Assembly (NCBI GenBank): GCA_029210875.1
Contig: JARGFJ010000026.1
Location: 1 to 33,404, forward strand
Origin: Gammaproteobacteria bacterium
Lineage (GTDB): Bacteria > Pseudomonadota > Gammaproteobacteria > Nitrosococcales > Methylophagaceae
Reading direction: 5' to 3'
DNA length: 33,404 nucleotides
Below the pieces are notes generated by a model. It was given only the letters and a program-made list of their open reading frames with translations, ran no database searches and was not told where the DNA came from. The position numbers and the translations under genes were made by a program. Positions 8,518 through 12,049 of the stretch are shown piece after piece. Position 1 is the first letter of the stretch, and each line of letters starts with the position of its first letter.

Positions 8518-9453
8518 ATGCAAAGAATTATTCGAGGTTTACACAATTTACCATCACAGCCAATCACTGGCTGTGTTGCCACTATTGGTAATTTTGATGG
8601 GATCCACCTTGGACATCAGGCGGTATTAAGCCAATTGGCGATGAAAGCTGATACGCTTGGATTGCCAGCAGTAATTATTACATTTGAACCTCAACCGAAT
8701 GAGTTTTTTGCGCCTGATAAAGCGCCAGCACGATTATGTCGTTTTCGTGAAAAAGTGGAAGCACTGCGTTGTTATTCAATTCAACAGCTCTGTGTTTTAC
8801 GTTTTGATAAAAAACTGGCCAATATGACCGCTGACACGTTTATTGAGCGTTTGTTAGTTCAAGGTTTAAATGTGCGTTATTTAGTGGTGGGTGACGATTT
8901 TAAGTTTGGTAAAGACCGACAAGGCGACTTTGTGTTACTACAGCAAGCTGGCAAACAGCACGGTTTTCAAGTGGTTAATATGCATACCTTTGCCATTGAA
9001 CAAAAACGTGTTAGCAGTACTCGTATTCGTAAAGCCTTGGAAGCGGGTGATTTAATTATGGCAGAAAAATTACTTGGTCGTCCGTTTCGTATGAGTGGTC
9101 GCGTTGCGCATGGCGATAAACGTGGTCGCACCATGGGCTTTCCTACTGCGAACATTCATTTACATCGCCACAAAGTACCTTTGAACGGGGTTTATGCGGT
9201 TCAACTGTTTGGTATCGAAGGCGAACCGATTCAAGGTGTGGCTAATATTGGAGTAAGACCAACCGTGGGTGCTGAAAAAGCATTATTAGAAGTGCATCTA
9301 TTCGATTTTAACCGGGAAATCTATGGCGAACATGTGCAAGTACATTTCTTACATAAATTACGAGATGAAACCAAATTTGATAGTTTGGAATCATTGATTA
9401 CGCAAATAAAACTAGACTGCCAGCAAGCAAAACGCTTTTTCGTTACTAGTTAA
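8518..9453 (+). CDS. ribF: Bifunctional riboflavin kinase / FAD synthetase
   Basis: Makes FMN from riboflavin and FAD from FMN. The N-terminal nucleotidyltransferase half carries TIGNFDGIHLGHQ near 23-35 and SSTRIRKAL near 162-170. The C-terminal kinase half begins at GRPFRMSGRVAHGDKRGR, with GFPTANI near 207-213 binding flavin and ATP. The 311-residue length is typical. There is no strong Shine-Dalgarno before the ATG at 8518 and no better alternative start. In many relatives ileS and lspA follow ribF; here the next genes encode an interrupted lipoprotein and cytochromes instead. No FMN riboswitch-like leader is visible. Confidence 0.96.
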   Translation: MQRIIRGLHNLPSQPITGCVATIGNFDGIHLGHQAVLSQLAMKADTLGLPAVIITFEPQPNEFFAPDKAPARLCRFREKVEALRCYSIQQLCVLRFDKKLANMTADTFIERLLVQGLNVRYLVVGDDFKFGKDRQGDFVLLQQAGKQHGFQVVNMHTFAIEQKRVSSTRIRKALEAGDLIMAEKLLGRPFRMSGRVAHGDKRGRTMGFPTANIHLHRHKVPLNGVYAVQLFGIEGEPIQGVANIGVRPTVGAEKALLEVHLFDFNREIYGEHVQVHFLHKLRDETKFDSLESLITQIKLDCQQAKRFFVTS

Positions 9454-9456
9454 ATG

Positions 9457-9480
9457 GATCAATAGTGTCATCGATTGATC
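9457..9480. repeat. Inverted repeat between ribF and the lipoprotein gene
   Basis: Perfect 7-bp arms GATCAAT (9457-9463) and ATTGATC (9474-9480) with a 10-nt spacer, starting three bases after the ribF stop codon and ending 21 bp before the next ATG. No T run follows on either strand, so it is not a standard terminator. It could be an operator or a mRNA hairpin; function not shown. Confidence 0.4.
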
Positions 9481-9501
9481 AAAGAATATCAGGGAGTAGT
9501 T

Positions 9502-9954
9502 ATGTTGCAACATCATCATGTTCTGTCGTTATTGTTAGTTAATTTTTTGCTGATAGCCTCGCTAAGTTCCTGCGACTAGGGAGAGGATATTCGGCAAACG
9601 CTCTCTACTCAGCCAAGCGATACAAAAGAGATTCCTTTGTGGCTGGATGGCAAGGTCGACATGTCACCTCAGAAAGGGCTGGTTAAACGTAGTCGTGCAG
9701 AAGTAATTGATGAGGATGCTGAAATTGCACGTACCGCTGAATTACTGATTATTACAGCTGATAGATTTGATGAAAGTCATCGGATGATCGCCAATCGTGT
9801 CGCCCAACTCGAAGATATGCTGCTAGAACATCGTATTAGTGAAACAGCAGTTGACCGATTAGAATGGTTTACCAAGCTGCCATCATTACAAGCCCCGCAC
9901 AGTTTCTCAGCACTTTGTCAGTACTATTACAATCTGCGCACTCAGGTTAATTAA
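9502..9954 (+). pseudogene. Lipoprotein gene interrupted by an in-frame amber codon after the lipobox
   Basis: From the ATG at 9502 (good ribosome site AGGGAG at 9491-9496) the frame encodes a classic lipoprotein signal: a hydrophobic stretch with lipobox LSSC (C24), then D25, then TAG at 9577-9579. The same frame then runs open to a TAA at 9952-9954, giving 124 more codons. The downstream part is unrecognised: helical and charged, with EDAEIARTAELL and RMIANRVAQLEDMLLEH and no heme motif. Explanations: a nonsense mutation (CAG to TAG would restore Gln), a sequence error, or a restart at the ATG at 9661. That ATG has AAGG just upstream and would give a cytosolic 97-residue protein. The gene precedes two exported cytochromes, so an envelope role for the intact form is likely. 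Confidence 0.6.
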
Positions 9955-10112
9955 TAGAATGAGATACACGTCTTTGACCAGATTTTAATTTTTTGTAACA
10001 AAGCTTGCCCAGGCTCGTCTCATTTTTAGCCTTACGCTAAATTGTTTGGCTATAAAAATAACGAGAACAGTTTTGCAGAACCCAGATGTAATTATTATTA
10101 GGAGAGAGAGCA

Positions 10113-10694
10113 ATGATCAACAGCATACCGAAATACCGTAAAGTAATGTTGGTCGCTACCCTGGTAGCGACAGGCGTCGTTTTGGCGTCTTGTGAAAACA
10201 TGCAAAGCAAGTCTTCCGCTGCGCCTGCGGCGGGGAAAATGTCGATCCAGGCTATGACTGAAATGGCAATGGGCAATATGAAAAAAATCATGATGCTCTC
10301 GTCTCAGGATCGTCAAGCCTATGTAATGAAAACGCAGCAGGATTCGATGAAACATGGTGAATCATTATTTGCCAGCGCAAGTCTTGGCAGCAATGGTTTT
10401 ACTTGTTCCACCTGTCACCCTGGTGGCAAAACAACAGGTGGTAAGGTCCCGATGGGTAAAATGGAAATGGCTATTCCCTCTCTGGTTGGTGTAGCAGCTA
10501 CATTCCCCAAATTCAAACCAGGTAATGATGCGGTTATCACTTTGGCAGAGATGAACAATAATTGTGTTGTTATGTTCATGAAAGGACAGCCTATTCCTCT
10601 TGGTAGTTCAAACGCTCGTGATTTGGCTTTCTTTATCACTAATCTGAGCAAGAATGTGCCATTGACACCTGGCAAGCAAAGTATGGAAATGTAA
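10113..10694 (+). CDS. Methionine-rich lipoprotein cytochrome c (monoheme)
   Basis: A 193-residue lipoprotein: signal peptide with lipobox LASC (C27), then a Ser/Ala linker, then a methionine-rich helix (about 43-80). One heme site, CSTCH at 98-102, follows. After it come IPSLVG and a C-terminal part EMNNNCVVMFMKGQPIPL (146-163) ending in a helix of the type that closes class I cytochromes. About 20 residues are Met. The NNNC (C151) and nearby Met are candidates for the distal heme ligand; TsdA and SoxA cytochromes use Cys at this position, but I cannot assign this protein to them. A strong ribosome site (AGGAGAGAGAG) precedes the ATG. It probably sits on a membrane facing the periplasm and passes electrons to the diheme protein encoded next. 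Confidence 0.8.
   Translation: MINSIPKYRKVMLVATLVATGVVLASCENMQSKSSAAPAAGKMSIQAMTEMAMGNMKKIMMLSSQDRQAYVMKTQQDSMKHGESLFASASLGSNGFTCSTCHPGGKTTGGKVPMGKMEMAIPSLVGVAATFPKFKPGNDAVITLAEMNNNCVVMFMKGQPIPLGSSNARDLAFFITNLSKNVPLTPGKQSMEM
10152..10171. repeat. Perfect 9-bp inverted repeat inside the cytochrome signal sequence
   Basis: Arms GTCGCTACC (10152-10160) and GGTAGCGAC (10163-10171) are separated by only CT, so as RNA it would fold with the innermost pair open. It lies in codons for VATLVAT, about 40 nt after the start codon. A strong hairpin here could pause translation during export, or it may simply reflect repeated Val-Ala-Thr codons. Confidence 0.5.
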
Positions 10695-10751
10695 GCAGCC
10701 TAATAGTTTAAGGCTGTTTTAACAGGCGTTTACAACAACGAGGTTTTGACT

Positions 10752-11387
10752 ATGCAGTTAATTTTCTTTACGACATCCCTGCGAACACTCCCTGCTTTTT
10801 ACATTAAATGGTTTGTGGGGTTGTCGTTTTTTTTGCTGACGATTTGTGCTCAGGCTGAAACGACTTCGGTCGCTTCAGGTCTTAAGTTAGTTCAGCAGTT
10901 TGCCTGTCAGAGTTGTCATACCATAGGTGATCAGGGTGGTATAGTCGGTCCTAATCTCAATCAGGTCACCATCCGCCGTGACAAGCAATGGCTGATGGAC
11001 TGGTTAAAGGATCCGGCAACCATCAAACAGGGAACGTTGATGCCTAAATTTGACTGGAAGCCAGGTGATCGCGAAGCTGTGATTGACTATCTCGCCAGTT
11101 TTGCAACACAGGTAGACGGTGATGCCATTATTGCTCAGAAAGGCAAGGATGAAAATGCTGGTAAAGCCTTGATACAAGCTTACCAATGTGCCGCTTGTCA
11201 CAAGGTGGCTGGCGAACCGGGACGGATGTTGTTTCCTGATTTGACTACTGTCAAGGAACGCCGTACGCCAGAATGGGAACGTAATTGGCTCAAAGATCCA
11301 CAAGCTATCAAGCCAGGTACGTTCATGCCCAACTTCCATTTAAGTGATGACGAAATTCAGGCTATTACCAGCTATTTGTATCGATAG
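10752..11387 (+). CDS. Periplasmic diheme cytochrome c with duplicated halves
   Basis: A 211-residue protein with a signal peptide cut after AQA (residue 35). Two class I cytochrome domains follow: CQSCH at 52-56 with axial Met in LMPKF (M97), and CAACH at 146-150 with FMPNF (M192). The halves match each other (WLKDPATIKQGTLMP against WLKDPQAIKPGTFMP), a clear internal duplication. The frame is open to a TTG six bases upstream, but GAGG at 10740-10743 fits the ATG at 10752. It resembles soluble cytochrome c4-like electron carriers, although spacing and sequence are not those of textbook c4 (inference). It follows the lipoprotein cytochrome by 57 bp and is closed by a terminator. Confidence 0.85.
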   Translation: MQLIFFTTSLRTLPAFYIKWFVGLSFFLLTICAQAETTSVASGLKLVQQFACQSCHTIGDQGGIVGPNLNQVTIRRDKQWLMDWLKDPATIKQGTLMPKFDWKPGDREAVIDYLASFATQVDGDAIIAQKGKDENAGKALIQAYQCAACHKVAGEPGRMLFPDLTTVKERRTPEWERNWLKDPQAIKPGTFMPNFHLSDDEIQAITSYLYR

Positions 11388-11413
11388 CTATTCAATTTAC
11401 TAAAGGAGTTTTG

Positions 11414-11446
11414 CAGCCCCCTAATTCAACGGGGGGGCTGTTTATC
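11414..11446 (+). terminator. Rho-independent terminator after the cytochrome genes
   Basis: GC-rich stem CAGCCCCC (11414-11421) with GGGGGCTG (11433-11440) and an 11-nt loop, followed by TTTATCTTCT. It lies 27 bp after the diheme cytochrome stop. The minus-strand side has no T run, so it serves the plus-strand transcript. Confidence 0.9.
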
Positions 11447-11521
11447 TTCTGCTTTTATACTCTTGGTCATTGGATTTGCTGGTTATTCTTATCCAGTTTT
11501 CAGGTTATTTACTCATTCAAA

Positions 11522-12049
11522 TCATTGGCGACAATGCCATGTTGGCAATTGTTTAATATCAATAATATGGTGTGATTGTAGCCATTGTCGGGCATCATCA
11601 GCATCGTGTTCAAACCATGCTTTGGCACTGCCTAGTCTGAAGGTGTAACCCCAGCGATCCATATCAATCATCATCCGTTCTCTACCGAGGTTGGGTAGAA
11701 AGTCAGCAAGTAGAATTTGTAAATAGCAGACACCATTTTCTTCGTCATAATCACCTTCGGCATCGGTATCGAGTTTGGCACGACGTTGTGGATCCATACA
11801 AATATAGTGACAGGCTTCATGCAAGGCCGAGTGAATAGGCGTGTCGTGGCGAAGATAGAGTAAGTTGCCAATCAAACCTGCTTCACGTTCACCAAAAAAA
11901 CTACCGGGAATGCTATCTTCATCTGCAACAAATTGTATTTCTAATCCATAGGGTTTAAGTAAGCCTGCTAATTGTTGTTGGCGCATCGCATTGCAGTTTA
12001 AAACATTGGTTGGATCTGCTGTGACAGCGGGATTAGACACGTCGAGCAT
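11522..12049 (-). CDS. Uncharacterised protein with HExxH zinc-protease motif
   Basis: I do not recognise the family by name. The 175-residue product carries HEACH at 77-81 inside SALHEACHYICMD, matching the HExxH zinc site of metallopeptidases, with acidic residues DEEN near 102-105 that could give a third ligand. The C-terminal third is rich in Trp, Asp and Arg (MDRWGYTFRLG, AWFEHDADDARQWL). No signal peptide or membrane helix, so cytoplasmic. The reading frame extends three codons to a TTG; I prefer the ATG at 12049. It overlaps the 3' end of tcdA by 17 bp, so the two are cotranscribed. Whether it cleaves anything is unknown. Confidence 0.75.
   Translation of the reverse strand: MLDVSNPAVTADPTNVLNCNAMRQQQLAGLLKPYGLEIQFVADEDSIPGSFFGEREAGLIGNLLYLRHDTPIHSALHEACHYICMDPQRRAKLDTDAEGDYDEENGVCYLQILLADFLPNLGRERMMIDMDRWGYTFRLGSAKAWFEHDADDARQWLQSHHIIDIKQLPTWHCRQ

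Follow-up and report, generated by a model that had tools for sequence, protein, structure and literature searches.

A broken MxaH-like lipoprotein gene, very probably a decayed duplicate, in an accessory insert downstream of ribF

In the mxa (methanol dehydrogenase) cluster of M. extorquens, published tables place mxaH in the order D-E-H-B (PMC6414531), and mxaH is co-regulated with the other mxa genes both in M. extorquens and in Methylocella (PMC6414531, PMC9291206). The order D-E-H-B was also found in Methylobacterium bullatum, where a distant homologue of the lipoprotein gene studied here occupies the mxaH place in the series mxaS-A-C-K-L-D-E-H-B, between mxaE and mxaB. Another distant homologue, from Methylocystis iwaonis, directly follows mxaFJGIRSACKL and an SRPBCC-type gene that was taken as mxaD. 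The lipoprotein itself matched no family model in Pfam or NCBIfam searches. A profile built from 18 intact homologues, all from the bacterial family of the studied genome and including that genome's own intact copy, matched M. bullatum MxaH with an E-value of 4e-25. Homologues with 71-78% identity to this intact copy were found in named Methylophaga genomes, and a match to the gene was present in 21 of the 57 genomes of the taxonomic family. Because homologues lie in mxa clusters and the close Methylophaga homologues lie outside them, the family was named MxaH-like. Some Methylophaga genomes carry an additional, more distant MxaH-type gene; in one genome (G060) the distant gene lies in the mxa cluster, as does the only MxaH-type gene found in another genome (G018) of the genus studied here. 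Intact family members are secreted and lipid-anchored and, judged from gene neighborhood, probably accessory to periplasmic methanol oxidation. A structure prediction for the M. muralis homologue, made from 4 sequences, yielded no usable model (mean pLDDT 45) and at most suggests that the protein is mostly helical.

The window, which is the whole stretch of 33,404 nucleotides that was analyzed, contains a broken frame of this type at 9502-9954 on the plus strand. Translation of 9502-9957 gave MLQHHHVLSLLLVNFLLIASLSSCD, a stop, GEDIRQ...NLRTQVN and two further stops, and it confirmed the layout that the first-pass annotation had described. A purine-rich AGGGAG stands directly 5' of the ATG at 9502, and the ribosome site with this start codon (9484-9504, plus strand; AGGGAGTAGTTATG) is retained and could be aligned with AGAGAGCAGTTATG of the intact copy. 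The signal peptide, the lipobox L-S-S-C24 and Asp25 (9502-9576, plus strand) aligned with MLKRYCVRLLLLVDFLLIVSLSACD of the same copy. The amber codon TAG (9577-9579, plus strand) follows as codon 26, two codons after the lipobox Cys; beyond it the frame remains open for 124 codons, to codon 150, and is closed by the two stops TAA (9952) and TAG (9955).

The intact copy was recovered when the assembly that contains the window (2.44 Mb in 93 contigs) was searched at the DNA level; a region of contig 35 showed 87% identity to the window DNA over 475 nt (E = 2e-166). This second copy (G000:C35:20406-20891, minus strand) is a complete frame for a lipoprotein of 162 aa. The alignment of the two copies begins at the ribosome site and finishes near the stop codon; with homology to an intact gene of the same genome extending over the ribosome site and the full frame, the window frame cannot be attributed to chance. 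The protein tree joined the window copy to the contig-35 copy, itself a member of the profile, as its sister with support of 100/100, which places the window sequence among the homologues of MxaH. The contig-35 copy (L021:8404-8892) adjoins mxaRSACKL and is arranged tail to tail with mxaL, so that the two are convergent. Since its nearest Methylophaga relatives are unlinked to mxa, this place beside mxaL may reflect a relocation into the cluster.

At the position of the amber codon the contig-35 copy has CAG. The first-pass annotation had suggested that a lipoprotein gene was broken here by a single C-to-T change from CAG, and had proposed that the codon at 9577-9579 be compared among relatives. 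This comparison bore the suggestion out: 8 of the 18 intact homologues have Gln (CAA or CAG) at this position, 5 have Glu, the rest have Asn, Asp, Gly or Ala, and none has a stop. With CAG in the own-genome paralogue and Gln in 8 of 18 homologues, a C-to-T change from CAG is the simplest origin of the TAG, and we infer that it arose in this way.

The amber codon is not the only lesion. At 9952-9957 (plus strand), translation and alignment with the intact copy showed that TAA-TAG ends the frame early, 14 codons short of the end of the intact protein, and a deletion of 12-13 nt lies 3' of it, at ~9966 (plus strand). The window copy deviates at three of the 37 alignment columns in which the intact homologues do not vary, with the changes W59G, A85T and G149V; GGG (Gly59; 9676-9678, plus strand) replaces a Trp that is present in all 18 intact homologues, and ACA (Thr85; 9754-9756, plus strand) replaces an Ala that is likewise present in all of them. 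Compared with an intact homologue, the window copy thus carries multiple disabling changes. It lacks the uninterrupted, lipobox-bearing frame with a full C-terminus, and because of the TAG at codon 26 and the TAA at codon 151 it was classified as a family pseudogene and not as a member. In the protein tree its end branch was 0.19, compared with 0.057 for the contig-35 copy. The break had been called fresh, a view that does not agree with several further lesions and a branch about three times as long as that of its sister. We consider it very likely that the window frame is a broken MxaH-like lipoprotein pseudogene, an ordinary decayed duplicate; its several lesions and longer branch would make it a decaying duplicate rather than a gene with one fresh break.

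The state of the domain core counts against this reading. The core (codons 43-148; 9628-9945, plus strand) is 96% identical in DNA to that of the intact copy, which, together with the 124 open codons, exceeds what would be left by long neutral decay alone. The core contains 12 differences in 318 nt, whereas codons 1-42 contain 42 in 126 nt (67% identity), and third positions differ between the two copies by 40% in codons 1-42 versus 8% in the core (p = 1.5e-5). This uneven divergence suggests a possible partial gene conversion of the core, but does no more than suggest it, since a similar contrast was seen in one orthologous pair. The high core identity fits a recent duplication or a partial gene conversion.

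It could be argued, from the same 96% core identity and from the possibility of a single-base error at the TAG, that the stop is a sequencing or assembly error in an intact and functional gene. We regard this as very unlikely, since correction of the one base would still leave a gene that lacks 14 codons at its C-terminal end and has lost the invariant Trp59, with the 3' deletion in place, and both flanks are contiguous in a relative's genome, so that the surroundings are not chimeric. Equally little room is left for a restart of translation at the ATG at 9661, proposed in the first-pass annotation, which would yield a cytoplasmic protein of ~97 residues. The core is well conserved and an AAGG does stand a few bases 5' of this ATG, but the stretch at 9652-9663 consists of ordinary codons of the conserved LDGKVDM motif. 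Since the AAGG-ATG is identical in the intact copy, where it encodes GKVDM, it lends no special support to a restart. Moreover, close homologues have an internal Met at this place and all of them start at a signal sequence, and the invariant Trp six residues beyond the ATG is lost.

Amber readthrough or suppression, also raised in the first-pass annotation, would turn the 124 codons that are open past the TAG into a near full-length lipoprotein, an outcome to which we give almost no credence. Neither a suppressor tRNA nor altered termination, as would mark an amber-recoded gene, was detected: among the 38 tRNA genes found, all of which were typed, none had a CUA anticodon, the PylS model did not pass its cut-off, RF1 is present in the genome, and TAG is a normal terminator in the window, where it ends 3 of the 37 genes. 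Readthrough would also leave the further lesions unexplained. Some lipoprotein signal fragments are pheromones in Gram-positive bacteria; that a secreted, lipidated stub is still made here, and that its Cys-Asp lipodipeptide or the signal peptide released by cleavage plays a role of its own, has practically no probability, as nothing supports such a role.

The pseudogene lies outside the mxa cluster, with ribF on one side and a gene at 11522 on the other, in an accessory insert of 2.06 kb (9454-11516) that comprises the pseudogene and two cytochrome genes. The insert is absent from the nearest relative (G004), which shows 92-94% DNA identity on both sides and in which window position 9453 is joined to 11517 with 6 bases between. 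In another relative of the genus (G016) the same site holds, as judged by eye, a YbaK-like and a ferritin-like gene. The lipoprotein gene was seen at this site in the window's genome only, the site being empty in the former and occupied by other genes in the latter, and the site downstream of ribF is a variable spot. An insertion may have occurred here, which is a simpler reading than a deletion in the nearest relative. No clear direct repeats flanking the insert were found. A weak 21-nt inverted pair (81%; 9438-9458 and 11335-11355) lies near the insert ends and may be due to chance.

The two neighboring genes are separate from the pseudogene. The first (10113-10694, plus strand) encodes a cytochrome c lipoprotein of the SoxA/TsdA type (Pfam PF21342, E = 1.4e-9) and the second (10746-11387, plus strand) a SoxX-like dihaem cytochrome c, which scored above the cut-off of TIGR04485. 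Close relatives of this pair (10113-11387) were found in none of the other genomes of the family, and plasmid records contained no relative of the first cytochrome. The same pair occurs in one other of 369 sampled genomes of the class, a gammaproteobacterium (G194, L134:6205-7542), with 58% identity for the first cytochrome; the two genes are side by side there, without the lipoprotein gene. The broken gene had been assigned to an envelope electron-transfer module. As it is MxaH-like and the cytochrome pair is found elsewhere without it, this module is a neighbor of the gene and not its context.

In the history that we propose, a duplication, or a transfer, would have brought a second MxaH-like copy, as part of the accessory insert, to the place downstream of ribF. 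This copy would then have lost its function, while the genome kept its intact copy next to the mxa cluster, and this redundancy may have relaxed selection on the window copy. Translation of the window copy, if there is any, would end after a mature stub of two residues, Cys-Asp. The locus shows cleanly how a redundant copy of a gene can decay within an accessory insert, which in itself carries little weight. The comparison also ties an unnamed Methylophaga-type lipoprotein to the MxaH family, and this may aid annotation.

Compared with described systems, the family resembles the MxaH of Methylobacterium and Methylocystis (mxaFJGIRSACKLDEHB) in having a signal peptide with a lipobox, in its similar length and in the common motifs P-x-WL, RM-ANR-QL--ML and CQ-YYN-R-G, and the intact copy of this genome resembles it further in adjoining mxaRSACKL. 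It differs in that identity is only ~30%, and the window copy differs in being broken and unlinked to mxa. The MxaH-like lipoprotein of M. muralis (L017:4932-5462), which is of the Methylophaga type, is closer, with identity to the intact copy in the 71-78% range, and most lipoproteins of this type have Gln two residues past the lipobox Cys, where the window copy has its amber codon. In contrast to the window copy, the Methylophaga gene is intact, has kept the C-terminal end GKTEDEIIQNLLRI and has different gene neighbors.
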